From Clostridiales bacterium (GTDB taxonomy: Bacteria > Bacillota > Clostridia > Christensenellales > CAG-917), in NCBI GenBank assembly GCA_012800805.1, contig JAAZIO010000171.1:1-11820 (forward strand): a stretch of DNA of 11,820 nucleotides. The letters are read 5' to 3'. Within the stretch, counting starts at the first letter, position 1, and each line of letters begins with the position of its first letter. Shown here in pieces: positions 2,136 through 11,820 of the stretch. The translations under genes were made by a program, and so were the position numbers. Below the pieces are notes generated by a model. The model saw only the letters and a list, made by a program, of their open reading frames with translations, was not told the DNA's origin and ran no database searches.

Positions 2136-4091
2136 ATGAGTAAATATGGCGGATACCAAGGCAAAATTTTAAAAATAGATTTGTCAACCCGAAATATTTC
2201 GGATTACGAAATAACCGACAGCGAACGCGAGCTGTATCTTGGCGGAAAAATTCTTGCCGCAAAAATCATCTACGACAACATTAAAAGAAAAATTGACGCG
2301 TTTGACCCTGAAAATTTGCTTGTCATAACAACGGGGCCGCTGAACGGGCTGCTTGCGCCCTGTTCGTCGCGCTTCAACATCTCGGGAATTTCTCCCCTTA
2401 CGGGGCTTTTGACCTCGTCAAACTGCGGCGGAACATTCGGCATGAAACTTAAAGCCGCGGGCTATGACGCTCTTATAGTTACGGGAAAGAGCAAAGAGAG
2501 AATCTATATTGAAATTAACGATGATAAAGTTGAGTTTAAAAACGCCGACAGCCTTTGGGGAAAAGAATGCATGGCAACTCAGGAAGAGCTGCAGAACATG
2601 CAGGCAAATCCAAAGCTCAAGACGGGCAAAATTGTCATCGGACCTGCGGGAGAAAATCTTGTAAGATACGCCTGTATACTGAGCGACGAGAGAGCGGCGG
2701 GAAGAGGCGGCCTGGGCGCTGTCATGGGCGCAAAGAATCTAAAGGCAATTACCGTTCAGGGCACTCATAAAATTGAGGTAAAGGAAAAAGAAAAATACCA
2801 AGCTCTTATAAAAAAGTGGATTGAATATTTAAGAAAACACCCGCTTACGGGAAATCAGCTTCCAAGGCTTGGCACTGCGGGGTTGATTGCTCCAATGCAG
2901 GCAAAGAATATTCTGTCAACCAAAAATTTTTCAAGCGGAAGGTTTGATAAATTTGAGAGCGTCTCAGGTGAAGTGCTTGCCGAAAAATACCTTGTTAAAA
3001 ACTCGGGCTGCATATCCTGCCCCATTCACTGCACGAGGGTGGTAAGCGTAAACGGCAAGAATGTCAAAGGGCCCGAGCTTGAAACTCTTGGGCTTTTGGG
3101 ACCAAACATCCTAAACGACAACCTGGAGGCTATTTTAAGGTGGAACTACCTTTTAGACGAGCTGGGCATGGACACCATTTCCTTTGCTGGCACTCTGTCG
3201 TTTGCCATGGAACTGAACGAAAAAGGCATGTGGGACAACGGCCTTGAGTTTGGCAAAATCGATAAAATAGACGAGCTTATACACGATGTAGCATACAGAA
3301 ACGGCGAGGTTGCCTATTATATAGGCGAAGGCTCACGGATAGTTTCCAAAAAATTCGGCGGAAGCGAGTTTGCGGGAAATGTCAAAGGCATGGAGCTTGC
3401 GGCCTACGAGCCGAGGGCGGCGGTTGGCCAAGGTCTTGGTTATGCGGTGTCAAACCGCGGCGGTTGCCACTTGAACGGCGGCTACAATGTCATTCTTGAA
3501 GGCTTGGGGCTGTCGGCTAACCAGTATACGCCAAAAGGCAAAGCCTCCTTTACAATGATGTTCCAAGACCTGATGGAAGCGGTGTCCGCGGGAGGCAGCT
3601 GTCTGTTTACGACATACGCGATATTTCCGCCGTCGCTTATCGAAAAGCCCAACTCAAAGCTCACGAGGTTTATAAACAAGGCGATACCTCACCTAGGGAG
3701 CGCGGTTGCTTTGGCTAACAGGTTCCCCGGCATTCTCTCGCTAAACCTTCCCACGCTTTTCCCTCATCCCCTTGCCATAAGTTACGCCACGGGAATGAAG
3801 CTTAATTTTGGAAAGCTTAAAAGAATCGGTGAGAGGGGCTACAACCTTGAAAGAATAATTAACCTGACGCTTGGGATGACCTGCGAGGACGACTCGCTCC
3901 CTAAGCGTCTGACTGACGAAAGGCAGCAGCCTGACAATAAACGCTCTAAAGTTCCGCTTAAAAAACTCAAGAAAACATACTACAGAGTAAGAGGCTGGGA
4001 CAAACTCGGCAGACCCACTAAATCTCTTATCAGACGCCTCAGACTTCCAAAAGACAGCGCGGCGCAGATTTATGGCGCCAAAGCAAATTAA
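2136..4091 (+). CDS. aor: Tungsten-containing aldehyde:ferredoxin oxidoreductase family protein
   Basis: This 651-residue protein belongs to the AOR family, cytoplasmic enzymes with a tungsten bis-pyranopterin centre and one [4Fe-4S] cluster that oxidise aldehydes (or related substrates) with ferredoxin. The N-terminal domain begins GGYQGKILKIDLST. RAAGRGGLGAVMGAKN at 187-201 is the pterin-binding glycine-rich segment. The cluster ligands appear as C292, C295 and C299 (GCISCPIHC) plus C489 (SAGGSCLFT). ELETLGLLGPN at 315-325, YEPRAAVGQG at 424-433 and RGGCHLNGGY at 441-450 are further family blocks, and the C-terminus has DDSLPKRLTDE and the RGWDKLGRPT motif. It opens the block containing moaD-like, thiF-like and tup genes, which strongly suggests tungsten rather than molybdenum. 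The natural substrate cannot be told from sequence, and no ferredoxin-like partner gene is adjacent. Confidence 0.95.
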   Translation: MSKYGGYQGKILKIDLSTRNISDYEITDSERELYLGGKILAAKIIYDNIKRKIDAFDPENLLVITTGPLNGLLAPCSSRFNISGISPLTGLLTSSNCGGTFGMKLKAAGYDALIVTGKSKERIYIEINDDKVEFKNADSLWGKECMATQEELQNMQANPKLKTGKIVIGPAGENLVRYACILSDERAAGRGGLGAVMGAKNLKAITVQGTHKIEVKEKEKYQALIKKWIEYLRKHPLTGNQLPRLGTAGLIAPMQAKNILSTKNFSSGRFDKFESVSGEVLAEKYLVKNSGCISCPIHCTRVVSVNGKNVKGPELETLGLLGPNILNDNLEAILRWNYLLDELGMDTISFAGTLSFAMELNEKGMWDNGLEFGKIDKIDELIHDVAYRNGEVAYYIGEGSRIVSKKFGGSEFAGNVKGMELAAYEPRAAVGQGLGYAVSNRGGCHLNGGYNVILEGLGLSANQYTPKGKASFTMMFQDLMEAVSAGGSCLFTTYAIFPPSLIEKPNSKLTRFINKAIPHLGSAVALANRFPGILSLNLPTLFPHPLAISYATGMKLNFGKLKRIGERGYNLERIINLTLGMTCEDDSLPKRLTDERQQPDNKRSKVPLKKLKKTYYRVRGWDKLGRPTKSLIRRLRLPKDSAAQIYGAKAN

Positions 4092-4124
4092 AAATCTTTA
4101 GCCAATCGGCTTATTGAGGTGAAT

Positions 4125-4361
4125 ATGATAAAAGTAAATTTTTTCGGGGTTTTAAGGCTGGACTATAAGGTCAGCAGCATGGATGTGGAATGCTCTAAAA
4201 ACGTAACCGAACTGCTTGAGCGTATCTCAAGCCAAAAAAGCATTCCCATCGACAGGCTTATAAGCTGTTCGTTTTACATAAACGGCAAGCCCGCAACCAT
4301 TCGTTCAAGAGTATTTGACGGCGACGAAGTCATGGTTATGTCGCCTGTAGCCGGAGGATAG
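4125..4361 (+). CDS. MoaD/ThiS-like sulfur carrier
   Basis: A 78-residue ubiquitin-fold protein ending in VMSPVAGG. The C-terminal Gly-Gly is the hallmark of MoaD and ThiS, whose terminal glycine is adenylated and thiocarboxylated to deliver sulfur, in MoaD's case for the dithiolene of molybdopterin. The ATG at 4125 is preferred over an in-frame GTG at 4119, because GAGGT at 4116-4120 makes a ribosome site for the ATG and overlaps the GTG. It lies 33 bp after aor and 2 bp before the ThiF-like gene, its expected activating enzyme. A MoaD-type gene next to AOR is a recurring arrangement in tungsten users. A ThiS role is less likely since no thiamin genes are present. Confidence 0.85.
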   Translation: MIKVNFFGVLRLDYKVSSMDVECSKNVTELLERISSQKSIPIDRLISCSFYINGKPATIRSRVFDGDEVMVMSPVAGG

Positions 4362-4363
4362 CG

Positions 4364-5008
4364 ATGTTTAATATCGAGCCCGCGGCGGCGGCCGAACTGC
4401 TGAGGTCCAAGACCGCTTTCATTGCGGGGCTTGGAGGACTTGGCGGTTATGTCGCCGAAGAGCTCGCCCGCTCGGGTGTCGGTAAAATCATAGCCTATGA
4501 CGGCGATGTGTTTCAAGAGAGCAACTTAAACCGCCAGCTGCTCTCTAATAAACTATTGCTTGGAAAAAGCAAATTTGAGGCGCTAAAGGAGCGCGTTGAA
4601 AGAATATCCGATACCAAAGTCGAGGGCGGGCAGGTTTTTATATCAGAAGATAACATTGATGAGCTCGCCTGCGGATGCGATATCATTATCGATTGCTGCG
4701 ACAATGTGAAATCAAGATTCGCTCTGCAATCTTATGCGGAAAAAAAGGGGCTTTTTTTGGTTCACGGGGCGGCTTGCGGATACCTTGGGCAGGTGTCCGT
4801 CATAAGCCCGGGCAGCGGGACTCTTAAAAAAATATATCCTAAAAGCGAAGGCACGGTAGGGCACACTCCCGCTCCCGCTCCCGCGATTGTCGGAAGCATT
4901 GAAGCGAGCGAGGCTTTAAGGGTTTTGCTTGGTCTTCCTTCCCCCATTTTGGACAAACTTTTGCTTATTGATTTATCTTCTCTTACTTTTGTAACTCTTA
5001 GCCTTTAA
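4364..5008 (+). CDS. ThiF/MoeB/HesA-family sulfur-carrier adenylyltransferase
   Basis: A 214-residue E1-like enzyme expected to adenylate the C-terminal glycine of the adjacent MoaD-like protein. The Rossmann nucleotide loop GLGGLG is at 22-27, followed by YDGDVFQESNLNRQ at 45-58 (D46, N54, R57, Q58 in conserved positions), K68/K70, and DCCDN at 110-114 with the Mg-binding-type Asp113. The protein is shorter than E. coli-type MoeB: it lacks the paired CxxC zinc cysteines and has no C-terminal rhodanese domain. Where MoeB has its first zinc pair and crossover region, this protein has TVGHTPAPAPAIVGSIEASEA (164-184). The GGAGG at 4354-4358, inside the moaD-like 3' end, fixes the ATG at 4364. 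It could equally be called HesA-like. Confidence 0.85.
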   Translation: MFNIEPAAAAELLRSKTAFIAGLGGLGGYVAEELARSGVGKIIAYDGDVFQESNLNRQLLSNKLLLGKSKFEALKERVERISDTKVEGGQVFISEDNIDELACGCDIIIDCCDNVKSRFALQSYAEKKGLFLVHGAACGYLGQVSVISPGSGTLKKIYPKSEGTVGHTPAPAPAIVGSIEASEALRVLLGLPSPILDKLLLIDLSSLTFVTLSL

Positions 5009-5148: not shown

Positions 5149-6138
5149 ATGAAAAGAAGACTTTTTGCACTTGCGCTTGTGCTTACGCTTGCGCTTTTCG
5201 CCTTTGTCCTTACGGCCTGCAATGATGAACCACCATCCGCGGTCCAAGACAAAATCCCCAACCTTACAATTTTATACGAACAGGATAGCGACATGCTAAA
5301 CACCTACTCGATGATTGCGGTAAGTCCCGACGCGCCTTTTAACAACCAGTCCGGAGCGGCTGTTAAGATTAACACCTCGGGCGCCGACGCATTCATTAAT
5401 TGGATGAGCCTCGCCTCAACAAGAGAGCTTATAAAAAATTACGGCTACAGCACCTATGGCGACTACCTCTTCTACCTTCTTGAAGACGCTCCCACAGTTG
5501 ATGTAACCATCCCCAACGCGACCGCGGAAACAAAGGTAATCCGCCTGTCCACCACAACATCCGTAAATGACAGCGGCCTTATGGATTATCTTGTCCCCGT
5601 CTTTGAAAACACCTACGGATATGATGTTCAAATCTACTCCGCGGGAACGGGCGCGGCCATCAACGCGGCAAAAGCAGGTAACGCCGATTTAATCCTTGTC
5701 CATTCCAAGTCCCAAGAAGAAGCTTTCGTAAACGCCGGCTTTGGCAGAGTTGTTTCGGGCTTTGATAAAGAAAGAGTTTCTTTTATGTATAACTTCTTCG
5801 TCCTCGTCGGCCCCACCACCGACCCCGCGGGCGTTAAGGAAGCTCCCAGCGTAAAAGATGCTTTCAATCTGATTGCCGAAGGCGGTTATAAATTCATCTC
5901 AAGAGGCGACGGAAGCGGCACCCACACTAAAGAGCTTACTCTTTGGCCGAAGAATCTCGGAATAACCTCCGACATCGACGGCACCGACCCCTTAGTTGAA
6001 GACAGTATGACTTATGAATGGTATGTTTCCGCAGGTCAAGGTATGGGAGCTTGCCTTATGATGGCTAACGAGAAAAACGCTTATGTTCTTTCAGACAAGG
6101 CGACCTACCTTGCATTCAAAAACTTTGTGGAAAAGTAA
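5149..6138 (+). CDS. tupA: Tungstate ABC transporter substrate-binding lipoprotein, apparently circularly permuted
   Basis: A 329-residue lipoprotein: KRR, a hydrophobic stretch, and lipobox LTAC with Cys24 as the lipidated residue. It should capture tungstate outside the membrane and pass it to TupB. The TupA signatures are all present: LSTTTSVNDSG (133-143), SAGTGAAI (164-171), DLILVHS (180-186), SRGDGSGTH (251-259), GQGMGA (296-301) and YVLSDKATYLAF (312-323). In the family as I know it, that last block is followed by a strand like LxILxExDxxLxNxYxVIAVxP, a FIxWL helix and a GxxLF tail. Here that part is instead at residues 38-109 (LTILYEQDSDMLNTYSMIAV, ADAFINWM, TYGDYLFYL), before the TTTS block, and the protein stops at FKNFVEK. 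A linker of about 16 residues (113-128) joins the two parts. AAGGAG at 5137-5142 supports the start. Confidence 0.9.
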   Translation: MKRRLFALALVLTLALFAFVLTACNDEPPSAVQDKIPNLTILYEQDSDMLNTYSMIAVSPDAPFNNQSGAAVKINTSGADAFINWMSLASTRELIKNYGYSTYGDYLFYLLEDAPTVDVTIPNATAETKVIRLSTTTSVNDSGLMDYLVPVFENTYGYDVQIYSAGTGAAINAAKAGNADLILVHSKSQEEAFVNAGFGRVVSGFDKERVSFMYNFFVLVGPTTDPAGVKEAPSVKDAFNLIAEGGYKFISRGDGSGTHTKELTLWPKNLGITSDIDGTDPLVEDSMTYEWYVSAGQGMGACLMMANEKNAYVLSDKATYLAFKNFVEK

Positions 6139-6141
6139 GCC

Positions 6142-6861
6142 TTGGGCGCAATCACTAAAGCATTCAACTTAATACTTTCAAATAATCCAACGCTAAACGA
6201 AATTATTTTCACCACATTAAAAATGGCGTTAATAAGCTCCGCGCTGTCGCTCCTTATCGGGGCGCCCGCGGGGCTTATTTTGGCTTATAAAGATTTCAAG
6301 GGCAAAAAAGCGGTGCTGGTGATATTAAGAACACTAATGGGCCTTCCGCCCGTTGTTGTCGGTATCGTTCTTTATGTGCTTTTTTCGGGCACGGGAATAT
6401 TCGGACGGCTCAACTTAATATTTACCGTTGAGCTAATGATAATTGCCCAGGTCGTATTGATTGCACCGATTGTGGCGGGCATGACTGAAACTGCGGCTAA
6501 ACAGCCATGCATGATGATGAAAGAGACCGCAAAGGGACTTAAGATGAAAGGCGGTAAGGTATTTTTGCTGTCGCTTTCAGAGAGCAGATACCAGCTTGTC
6601 GCCGTTTATCTATTCGCGTTTGCAAGAGCGATATCCGAAGTCGGCGCGGTTCAGATAGTAGGCGGCAACATTCTTCACAAAACAAGGGTAATGACCACTA
6701 CCATAGCCCTAAACTACAACACGGGCCAGTTCACATACGCGGTTGCGCTGGGAATAATTTTATTGATTCTCACTTTTGCGATAAATTTAATTGCTGCGCT
6801 TATCCAGTTTTCCGCAAGCAGGGCCCAAAGAAGGCGGAGGGGTAATGAAAATAACGGCTAA
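6142..6861 (+). CDS. tupB: Tungstate ABC transporter permease
   Basis: A 239-residue inner-membrane permease of the TupB type. Hydrophobic segments lie near 25-48, 56-81, 93-115, 150-175 and 198-225. The family blocks LMGLPPVVVGIVLYVLFS (65-82) and AQVVLIAPIVAGMT (102-115) are clear, and the cytoplasmic EAA-like coupling loop is at 128-145 (ETAKGLKMKGGKVF), where TupC should dock. The start is TTG at 6142, 3 bp after the tupA stop. It is chosen because TupB proteins have about 25 residues before the first membrane segment and because the next in-frame ATG (6223) would remove them. A weak GGAAAAG (6129-6135) precedes it. Translation is probably coupled to tupA. Confidence 0.93.
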   Translation: MGAITKAFNLILSNNPTLNEIIFTTLKMALISSALSLLIGAPAGLILAYKDFKGKKAVLVILRTLMGLPPVVVGIVLYVLFSGTGIFGRLNLIFTVELMIIAQVVLIAPIVAGMTETAAKQPCMMMKETAKGLKMKGGKVFLLSLSESRYQLVAVYLFAFARAISEVGAVQIVGGNILHKTRVMTTTIALNYNTGQFTYAVALGIILLILTFAINLIAALIQFSASRAQRRRRGNENNG

Positions 6862-7489
6862 GGTGATATACAACGGTTCTACCGTCCTTGATGTAAAGGA
6901 TGTCTGCTTTGAATTGGGGAAAAAATACGCTCTTATCGGTCCCAACGGCTCGGGCAAATCAACCTTTTTAAAGTGCATTGCGGGGCTTATCCGCTTTGAC
7001 GGCGAAACTGAGGGTTTTGACGGTGCGGTTTATATGCCTCAAAACAGCTTTGCTTTTTCAATGTCGACTTTATCAAACGTGGCGCTTGCGGGAAAAAATA
7101 AAGCATCGATAAACAAAGAAAAGGCCAAAAGGCTTCTTAAAAAGCTGGAAATTGGCCACCTTGCCAAAAAGAACGCGGTTTCTCTTTCGGGCGGCGAAAA
7201 ACAGCGCATGGCGCTTGCAAGAGTTCTGCTGGATAATCATTTGGTAATACTTCTTGACGAGCCCACGGCGTCGTGCGACGCCAAATCCTCTTTGATTTGC
7301 GAAAGGGTTATTGACGAGTATGTAAATGAAAGCAAGGCGGCGCTGATATTTGCGACGCACTCTATAAAGCAGGCTAAAAGGCTTGCGGACGAGTTTTTGC
7401 TGTTTGAGGAAGGTAAAATCACCTTAAGAGGAAAAACAGGTGAGCTTGACAGCCTTAAAAACGGCTTTGTTGAATGTATGATTAAATAA
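6845..7489 (+). CDS. tupC: Tungstate ABC transporter ATP-binding protein
   Basis: A 214-residue ABC ATPase that powers tungstate uptake through TupB. Motifs: Walker A GPNGSGKST at 32-40, Q-loop Gln66 (MPQN), signature LSGGE at 114-118, Walker B VILLDE at 134-139 with catalytic Glu139, and switch His172 (ATHS). It is a minimal, single-domain ATPase without the C-terminal regulatory (MOP) domain of some ModC proteins. The ATG at 6845 is preferred to the 18-codon-longer open frame, because GGAGGGG (6836-6842) lies just ahead and the shorter product has normal family length. It overlaps tupB by 17 bp. The gene ends the block and a strong terminator follows. Confidence 0.95.
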   Translation: MKITAKVIYNGSTVLDVKDVCFELGKKYALIGPNGSGKSTFLKCIAGLIRFDGETEGFDGAVYMPQNSFAFSMSTLSNVALAGKNKASINKEKAKRLLKKLEIGHLAKKNAVSLSGGEKQRMALARVLLDNHLVILLDEPTASCDAKSSLICERVIDEYVNESKAALIFATHSIKQAKRLADEFLLFEEGKITLRGKTGELDSLKNGFVECMIK

Positions 7490-10079: not shown

Positions 10080-10189
10080 ATCCGATATCCTAAACTCAGC
10101 CTCCCGCACTGGCGGCAATCTAAAATCACTCTATTATTTCGATTTTACCGATGTCCGTAAATTCATAGCCTCCCGCATTAGAAGCAAGC
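10080..10189 (-). repeat. Decayed tandem copy of the moeA 3' tail
   Basis: The end of moeA encoding SNAGGYEFTDIG (within 10147-10189) is echoed 69 bp downstream, in the same frame but after the stop, at about 10080-10121. That stretch would read AASAGG, stop, V, stop, DIG. The pair share AGCCTCCCGCA exactly (plus strand) with similar sequence on both sides, broken by small gaps. It looks like a remnant of a second copy of this domain or a local duplication. Confidence 0.45.
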
Positions 10190-11820
10190 GACATAAATTC
10201 GTTTGATTTTATATATTCGATAAACATTTTTACCCTGTCGTCGCTCAATGTATCATAGCTTAAAAGGAAATCATAGCTTTCCTCAAGGAGCGGATAAAAC
10301 TCAAGCCCAAACGCTTTAGCCGCGCTGTAAACGCCGATTCCCGTATCGAACTCTCCCCCCGCTACCGCCGCGGCTACGGAAAGATGCGTGGTGAATTCCT
10401 TGTCGTAGCCGTTTATGTCCTCGGGGTCAATGCTTTCATTCTTTAAAAGGTAATCGGTTAAAAGTCTTGTGCCCGCTCCAGACTGGCGGTTGGCAAAGCG
10501 GAGTTTTCTTTCCTTTACCTCTTTTAAGGACATAACTTTTTCGCCCTTTTTGCAGTAAAACCCCTGTATTCTGTTAACTCCCTTAATGAGAGCCATTTTT
10601 TTGCCTTTGAAATACTTTTTAATAAACGGTATGTTATATTCCCCGCTTTCGGCGTCAAGCAGATGTATCGGCGCTATATGGCAAGCCCCCTTTAAAAGGG
10701 CGGAAATACCTCCAAGGCTTCCAACATGAGCGGAGGAGAGAGGAACCTCGCATGATATCAAATCAATTATCATGTCATAGCTTCCTATAAGCACGAGTTT
10801 TTCTTTTATTTCGCCAAGCGGTTTAAGAAGCGACACGGGTAAGGTTTCGCCCGCCTCGTATCCCTCGCAAAGGCGCGGAATATATAAAAGACCGTCCGCT
10901 TTGACCATGCTCATGACCGCGGCGGCGCCCCTGTCAAGCGGGGTCATTACAAGCTTTCCGTTGACCTCGCCAAGGCTGACTCTTACAAATTCGAGCGACT
11001 TAAACGACGACGTCACCCTCCTTGTTAGCGTTGCCTCGGCGGTTTCAAGTTTTTCCTCTTTTTTGCCCAAAAGCCTTTCAATCAAGGGTTTTACCACATG
11101 CATAAAGACAAGCTGAGCCGATACGGGATATCCCGGTATGCCGATTACGGGCTTGCCCTTTACTTCCGCAAGTATCGTCGGCTTTCCCGGTTTTATCGCA
11201 AGGCCGTGGCAGTATACCGTCCCAAGCTCCGAAAGAACCGAAACGGCATAGTCTTTTGTGCCGGCGCTTGAGCCTGCGTTGAGCAGCACCATGTCGTTTT
11301 CCTCAGCCGCCTTTAGAACCGCATTTTTCAAAAGCTCTTTTTCATCAGGGACTATATCGTATCTTTTGGGTTCGGCTCCAAGCTCATGGCACATGGCGGA
11401 GAAAACTTTGGTGTTCGACTCCATAAGTTTTCCGCTCTTAAGCTCGCTAATATCCTCTATAAGCTCGCCGCCCGTGGGTATGATGCCCACTTTTGGTTTT
11501 TTCGTCACCTTAACAAAGCCGCTCGTAGAGGCAATAAGGCACCCTATATCGATTGCCCTTATTTTGTAGCCTTGAGGAAACAGCATTTCAAAGGCGGAAA
11601 CGCTCTCGCCAACAACCCTGATGTTTTGAAGCGGACGCGCGGGTTTTATAAGTTTAACCTTGCCCTCCCCCGCGTCTATGACATCTTCTATCATTACGAC
11701 CGCGTCGTAGCCGCTCTGAATGGCTACGCCCGTGTTTATATACTCAAAATCCTTTTTTAAAAACAGCTCTACTGGCTCGCGCTCGGTTGCGGAAAAAGTG
11801 TTTTCGACCTTAACCGCTAT
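10126..11820 (-). CDS. moeA: Molybdopterin molybdenumtransferase MoeA fused to a PBP-like domain (5' end outside window)
   Basis: The frame is open to the right edge, so 564 residues are visible and the start is missing. The first part is the MoeA N-terminal domain (INTGVAIQSGYDAVVMIED). The molybdopterin-binding domain follows at about visible residues 110-250: PTGGELIE, SNTKVFSAMC, LNAGSSAGTKDYA, IKPGKPTILA and GIPGYPVSAQ. Next comes the MoeA C-terminal beta domain, to about 335. The remaining ~225 residues are a periplasmic-binding-like fold of the LysR-substrate/ModA kind (IGSYDMIIDLIS, RQSGAGTR, DTGIGVYSAAKAFGLEF, NAGGYEFTDIG). It has no export signal in view and would act in the cytoplasm. 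MoeA inserts the metal into molybdopterin; the fused domain may present or sense the oxyanion, which is inference. This MoeA-PBP fusion is known in anaerobes and archaea. Confidence 0.93.
   Translation of the reverse strand: MAVKVENTFSATEREPVELFLKKDFEYINTGVAIQSGYDAVVMIEDVIDAGEGKVKLIKPARPLQNIRVVGESVSAFEMLFPQGYKIRAIDIGCLIASTSGFVKVTKKPKVGIIPTGGELIEDISELKSGKLMESNTKVFSAMCHELGAEPKRYDIVPDEKELLKNAVLKAAEENDMVLLNAGSSAGTKDYAVSVLSELGTVYCHGLAIKPGKPTILAEVKGKPVIGIPGYPVSAQLVFMHVVKPLIERLLGKKEEKLETAEATLTRRVTSSFKSLEFVRVSLGEVNGKLVMTPLDRGAAAVMSMVKADGLLYIPRLCEGYEAGETLPVSLLKPLGEIKEKLVLIGSYDMIIDLISCEVPLSSAHVGSLGGISALLKGACHIAPIHLLDAESGEYNIPFIKKYFKGKKMALIKGVNRIQGFYCKKGEKVMSLKEVKERKLRFANRQSGAGTRLLTDYLLKNESIDPEDINGYDKEFTTHLSVAAAVAGGEFDTGIGVYSAAKAFGLEFYPLLEESYDFLLSYDTLSDDRVKMFIEYIKSNEFMSLASNAGGYEFTDIGKIEIIE

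Follow-up and report, generated by a model that had tools for sequence, protein, structure and literature searches.

A tupA-type gene of a Clostridiales bacterium encodes its C-terminal part before the core, and relatives carry two further permuted orders

Introduction

Does the lipoprotein encoded beside tupB and tupC in this DNA follow the chain order of ordinary TupA, and if it does not, how might its own order have arisen? We analyzed a stretch of 11,820 nucleotides from a Clostridiales bacterium, called the window below, whose tupA-type gene had earlier been read from the letters alone (the sequence-only reading) as circularly permuted. The exchange of order is confirmed below. Judged from sequence comparison, it is quite probable that this protein, with its circularly permuted chain, works as the tungstate-binding lipoprotein of a TupABC importer, and that the permuted forms come from one tandem fusion.

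Layout of the window

The + strand carries, in this order, two genes that we take from their look to be synthetase-like (the first present as its end only), a gene for an aldehyde ferredoxin oxidoreductase (AOR) family protein, a MoaD-like and a ThiF/MoeB-like gene, and tupA, tupB and tupC (Table 1). The aldehyde ferredoxin oxidoreductase family is tungsten-using. On the - strand are a MoaC/MOSC-type gene, genes for MoaC and MoaA, and one for a MoeA that ends in a fused PBP_like domain (PF12727; window 10126-11820, open at the window edge). The sequence-only reading had described an intact lipobox and intact ligand signatures in one frame, and these are indeed present, with Cys24, TTTS, H185, R252, T258 and D316 all encoded in it.

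Table 1. Features of the permuted tupA-type gene and its + strand neighbors in the window.
Feature	Positions	Strand	Details
tupA-type gene, circularly permuted, CP1 order A-B-linker-core-preA	5149..6138	+	329 aa, single frame
Signal peptide and lipobox VLTAC, lipidation Cys24	5149..5220	+	from sequence; modeled helix at 2-22
Moved block A+B, residues 31-112, homologous to the canonical TupA C-terminus	5239..5484	+	
Linker from the old C-end (B) to the old N-end (core), ~residues 113-134	5485..5550	+	
Core with ligand residues T135-S138 (TTTS), H185, R252, T258	5551..6075	+	ligand roles after PMC5517513
preA block (AYVLSDKATYLAFK) with D316, new C-terminus	6076..6135	+	
Molybdenum/tungsten cofactor riboswitch RF01055	5038..5158	+	70.6 bits; without stem P3; overlaps the tupA start codon
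TupB-type permease	6142..6861	+	NF041773 144 bits (below cut-off 320); NF038017 185 bits (above cut-off 100)
TupC-type ABC ATPase	6845..7489	+	start assumed to be the ATG inside ORF 6791-7489
Aldehyde ferredoxin oxidoreductase family protein, upstream of tupA	2136..4091	+	
MoaD-like and ThiF/MoeB-like genes, between the AOR gene and tupA	4119..5008	+	

Chain order of the window protein

Four solved chains match the window protein by sequence comparison, and in the three alignments examined the match consists of two blocks in swapped order. Residues 23-201 of D. alaskensis TupA (5my5) correspond to residues 126-324 of the query, and residues 203-261 to query residues 32-98. Taken alone, the second block scores weakly against distant solved chains (1.3, 8.4 and 13.8 bits; best i-E 0.23). 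The match to a close canonical relative (G007) is clear: a segment corresponding to query residues 120-327 is followed directly downstream by one corresponding to residues 33-113 (68.8 bits). Against a rotated profile, the window protein reads positions 205-291 first and then positions 1-206. When the mature protein (residues 25-329, end gaps charged) was rotated, end-to-end alignment scores rose against all six canonical relatives tried, from 270-474 unrotated to 520-853 at the best rotation. For all six the best rotation starts at residue 113-128, close to the residue ~129 at which the sequence-only reading had placed it.

The swapped blocks, the reading of the rotated profile and the rotation scan thus confirm the order. 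In the window protein, a lipoprotein of TupA type, the C-terminal part (~36-112) is placed before the core, and the two-block swap bears out the earlier assignment of residues 38-109 to the ordinary C-terminal segment. As expected of a natural permutant, both parts are homologous to those of the unpermuted protein, their order is exchanged and the old chain ends are joined. The window protein is homologous to the TupA proteins of D. alaskensis (5my5) and G. sulfurreducens (3lr1) over the core and the C-terminal part after rotation, and differs from them in that the last quarter and the core are exchanged, as well as in inserts that are common to its close canonical relatives. The best Pfam and NCBIfam matches span only residues 124-325, and family models take such permuted proteins for truncated ones.

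Four chain orders and their cut sites on the fold

For comparison among relatives we distinguished three blocks beside the core: preA (AYVLSDKATYLAFK), A (the LTILYEQDSDMLNTYSMIAV stretch) and B (ADAFINWM...LFYL). The canonical order is core-preA-A-B, and that of the window protein, here called CP1, is A-B-linker-core-preA. Relatives carry two further permuted orders, beyond what the sequence-only reading foresaw. CP2 (genomes G002, G010 and G015) is B-linker-core-preA-A, and CP3 (seven genomes of family f24) is preA-A-B-linker-core. Signal peptides precede all four orders.

According to PMC5517513, lobe A of D. alaskensis TupA comprises A2-R76 and Y201-E251, and lobe B comprises A91-Q200. We mapped the cuts from the 5my5 alignment, using the TTTS motif to set the offset, which is 23. 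The CP1 cut falls at ~residues 178-186 of D. alaskensis TupA (lobe B), the CP2 cut at 208-214 (lobe A) and the CP3 cut at 162/163 (inside lobe B). Since the chain crosses the hinge at 200/201, the window cut lies near the hinge and not at it. The earlier placement of the break at the hinge therefore needs correction, the cut mapping inside lobe B, ~15-20 residues before the crossing. From the same mapping, the lipid anchor appears to have moved on the fold, as the sequence-only reading had held: it would enter at lobe B instead of lobe A, and this attachment to the membrane would be the feature that changed.

Occurrence in other genomes

CP1 was found in 24 genomes of six families, the window and incomplete copies counted, and in two named Lachnospiraceae MAGs; three genomes have CP2 and seven CP3. 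It is not the usual order of TupA. Among the 90 ORFs of a first set, 11 are CP1 (window counted), 3 CP2, 7 CP3 and 69 canonical, a class that was assigned by default to ORFs with no exchanged block and includes a few gapped, cut or more distant paralogues. Matches were found in 12 of the 43 genomes of the window's family (window counted), two of them CP1, three CP2 and seven canonical (one a fragment). Family f24 has matches in 9 of 40 genomes (one CP1, seven CP3, one canonical), f10 in 12 of 103 (11 CP1, including one degenerate, one cut and one fragment, and one canonical) and f58 in 8 of 200 (three CP1, one of them cut, three canonical and two weak partial). The corresponding figures are 22 of 119 for f34 (four CP1, 16 canonical, one fragment, one weak) and 5 of 13 for f107 (three with CP1, one of these split by an in-frame TGA, and two with canonical genes only). 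One f107 genome (G1549) carries both a canonical and a CP1 gene (L158, L155).

A search of the class matched 48 of 391 genomes, window counted, and three others of these are CP1. In the phylum, 190 of 398 genomes match, the window's own included. Apart from the window's, none of the phylum matches listed starts before query residue 72, and nearly all start from 113 onward and so cover the core only. We saw no permuted order other than the window's among these listed matches; the 29 loci that were read are all canonical, and so, on reading, is the oddest row (G1054).

Some genes have unusual features. A CP1 gene in G365 (L037) has degenerate ligand motifs (TTTALVESG, SRGDFSATH) and neither tupB nor tupC in its 1.5-kb flanks, and is perhaps a paralogue with another role. 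The CP1 gene of G1551 (L154) is split by one in-frame TGA, which may reflect a sequencing error, a pseudogene or recoding. At L038 (1423-3189) and L121, canonical TupA and a second domain share one ORF, in frames of 595 and 631 aa; the second domain of L038 is Peripla_BP_2 (PF01497, 114 bits), and that of L121 is alike by look. Near the canonical tupA genes of L049 and L098 lie ORFs with an extra N-terminal part joined to a TupA-like domain. From its look, the extra part is presumably a ModE/LysR-type DNA-binding domain.

Evidence for function

The ligand residues of D. alaskensis TupA, as named in PMC5517513, are Thr9-11, Ser12, His59, Arg118, Thr124 and Asp170. All of their equivalents are present in the window protein (T135-137, S138, H185, R252, T258 and D316), which has the same TTTS, H, R, T and D residues as TupA. 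In an alignment of 28 sequences none of these positions varies except D316. D316 sits in the block moved by CP3. As with the window gene, tupB and tupC adjoin 32 of 36 permuted genes (20 of 21 in the first set, 12 of 15 in the second); the four lacking them are L037 and three genes at contig ends. The window protein scores 148 bits against the equivalog model NF041772, whose cut-off is 400 bits. This cut-off does not discriminate here, because three canonical-order controls also fall below it (170, 182 and 218 bits).

The riboswitch upstream exceeds the RF01055 cut-off of 36 bits, and its 3' end seems to hold the tupA ribosome-binding site. It was found in 13 of 16 relatives, with all four orders among them, and three of the 16 showed none. 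Its discoverers tie the motif lacking P3 to the tungsten rather than to the molybdenum cofactor (PMC2408646).

The structure model of the window protein has a mean pLDDT of 90.1; taken by tens of residues, the values are 95-98 in the linker (residues 111-130) and 89-98 in the moved block. In an order-bound Foldseek comparison the nearest solved folds are 3lr1 (best), 3muq, 5my5 and 3kn3, each over ~200 columns. The fold would be the ordinary two-lobed TupA fold. For CP3, modeled from a 16-row alignment, residues 21-54 have a pLDDT below 50 and the N-terminal block is too uncertain to serve as evidence; in a similar alignment, this block was aligned to linker residues.

The dN/dS (NG86) of the moved block is low, at ~0.07-0.19. 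All 11 permuted pairs whose dS was usable have dN below dS, by a rough method in which many dS values exceed 1, the pairs overlap and a twelfth pair is saturated. An unmoved stretch before the core gave a dN/dS of ~0.8 in one canonical pair (~20 codons). We set aside the possibility that the gene is a non-functional relic, on account of the low dN/dS.

The ligand residues, the low dN/dS and the riboswitch of tungsten-cofactor type point to a tungstate binder that is likely working, in agreement with the earlier expectation of a functional protein. Under control of the riboswitch, the lipoprotein would catch tungstate in its cleft and pass it to TupB/TupC, to supply the tungstoenzyme encoded upstream.

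Trees, junctions and linkers

In a tree of 52 rows, 39 rows (7 canonical, 22 CP1, 3 CP2 and 7 CP3) form one supported clade (100/100). Over all columns the permuted forms group together (84/65), and so do CP2 and CP3 (98/96). The core columns alone place the permuted forms in one clade (95/85) and CP1 in one group (93/84). The moved block alone unites the same 39 rows (100/99) and leaves the permuted forms ununited, and a constraint that unites them is not rejected (AU p 0.164). An 83-row tree, built without L071, L048, L055 and L051 (canonical ORFs that are gapped or cut) and without the second, distant ORFs of L049, L095 and L098, gave a clade of 21 permuted and seven canonical rows (100/99) with no resolution of the branching among them. 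The 52-row trees further omit L037 (degenerate), L105 (cut at a contig end), L122 (a fragment), L154 (split by TGA), most of the distant canonical rows, and the newly fetched canonical rows except L121. In the all-column tree of 52 rows, CP1 genes do not sort by family. L043 (f107), for instance, groups with L029 and L118 (f10; 100/96), which suggests transfer between families.

Each permuted order lacks one junction that the other two have: preA-A in CP1, A-B in CP2 and core-preA in CP3. The spacer at the preA-A junction, D(K/R/Q/A)(L/I)(P/S)xL (for example DKLPNL and DKIPNL), occurs in all seven canonical members of the clade, all seven CP3 and all three CP2 proteins, and in none of the remaining 62 canonical ORFs. 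The window protein, cut at this junction, retains the second half at its N-terminus (QDKIPNL). Because the spacer is specific to the clade, the preA-A junction was inherited in CP2 and CP3 and not re-made.

The linkers from B to the TTTS strand of the core are 23 aa long in CP1, 26 aa in CP3 and 28 aa in CP2. In each of six comparisons their likeness across orders beats 999 or more of 1000 shuffles, with relatedness within groups left uncorrected. The 21 permuted proteins of the first set entered this test and 20 were scored, L037 giving no match.

Origin of the permuted orders

The simplest history that we infer from the sequences starts with one tandem fusion. Its product, core-preA-A-B-linker-core-preA-A-B, would have followed the original signal peptide and been trimmed at three different places in different lineages to give CP1, CP2 and CP3. 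It is favored because a single ancestor with all the junctions needs one fusion and three trimmings. Trimming would have taken place behind the lipobox, since all four orders begin with a signal peptide and the riboswitch precedes the gene in 13 of 16 relatives. The course proposed by the sequence-only reading, in which the gene was duplicated and then lost its outer parts, survives as the best model; the partly duplicated gene that such a course might leave behind was not seen among 152 ORFs (some the same gene twice). In this set no doubled block was found in TupA, and a diverged second copy could escape this test, because only short stretches of the window protein served as probes. The only double match was in L109, a protein with weak partial TupA resemblance.

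The permutations might instead have arisen three times from the clade's canonical genes, through a separate duplication and trimming each time, with linkers that are convergent or made from shared ends. The absence of any intermediate among the 152 ORFs and the shortness of the linkers would fit such a course, as would the moved-block tree, in which the permuted forms are not united and CP2 stands apart at low support (87/46). We consider it rather unlikely, given that the core tree unites the permuted forms, that CP2 and CP3 group at 98/96, and that linkers resemble one another across orders beyond nearly all shuffles, strongly so between CP2 and CP3. It is more doubtful still that the ends moved stepwise, with CP1 formed first and CP2 and CP3 re-permuted from it. 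CP1 is the most widespread order found, and in the moved-block tree the window protein and L027 (also CP1) lie beside CP3 (90/88), yet CP1 is a single group on the core. CP2 and CP3 moreover retain the spacer at the very junction where CP1 is cut, and re-making it would take a second fusion of exact length.

Two further explanations would deny that the family's own chain has been permuted at all. An N-terminal block from another gene that mimics a lost C-terminus, an idea discussed by the authors of the TpMglB-2 study (PMC4990184), is very improbable here. The moved-block tree joins the same 39 permuted and canonical rows in one clade, which makes the block a part of this family and residues 36-112 no unrelated domain. 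An assembly or annotation artefact might be suspected in a draft genome as fragmented as the window's (208 contigs, 73% complete), but is scarcely credible. The frame is uninterrupted within an operon, and the same order recurs in other genomes of six families, with several copies on contigs longer than 100 kb (L114, 601 kb; L028, 288 kb; L025, 960 kb). At ~44-61% identity, these CP1 relatives are not copies.

On balance we lean toward a single tandem-fused tupA in an ancestor inside the window's class, which would have given rise to at least three permutants beside the canonical form, all with the same signal peptide and mostly with the same riboswitch. Permutation by duplication would then have been caught at genus-to-family depth, with the anchor at three points of the fold.

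Discussion

The window protein is most likely TupA by descent and by function, and not by chain order. We found no permuted TupA in the open-access literature. A naturally permuted binding lipoprotein of an ABC importer is known in TpMglB-2 (Tp0684) of Treponema pallidum and also in Gram-positive relatives, according to PMC4990184. As described there, TpMglB-2 is a Type I sugar binder with one permuted order and a permuted part poorly conserved relative to the canonical one, whereas here a TupA-type protein has three permuted orders and a moved part that is clearly homologous. The window protein does not belong to Type Ic or Cluster Bc, which have a Type I, Cluster B fold; its best solved matches, in both sequence and fold, are TupA-type.

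Among DNA methyltransferases, permuted orders are old and divergent. Their circular motif orders have been explained by permutation by duplication, with intermediates, in PMC3320104. In contrast, the orders described here differ between genera of one bacterial family, and intermediates were not found.

Four orders in one close clade, with the same operon and mostly the same riboswitch, mean that the steps of permutation can be ordered, and the presumed ancestor of the permuted forms could be built and tested. The natural variants let the effect of the tether point of a binding lipoprotein be measured. With close relatives cut at two further places, the family offers an unusually clear view of protein ends on the move.
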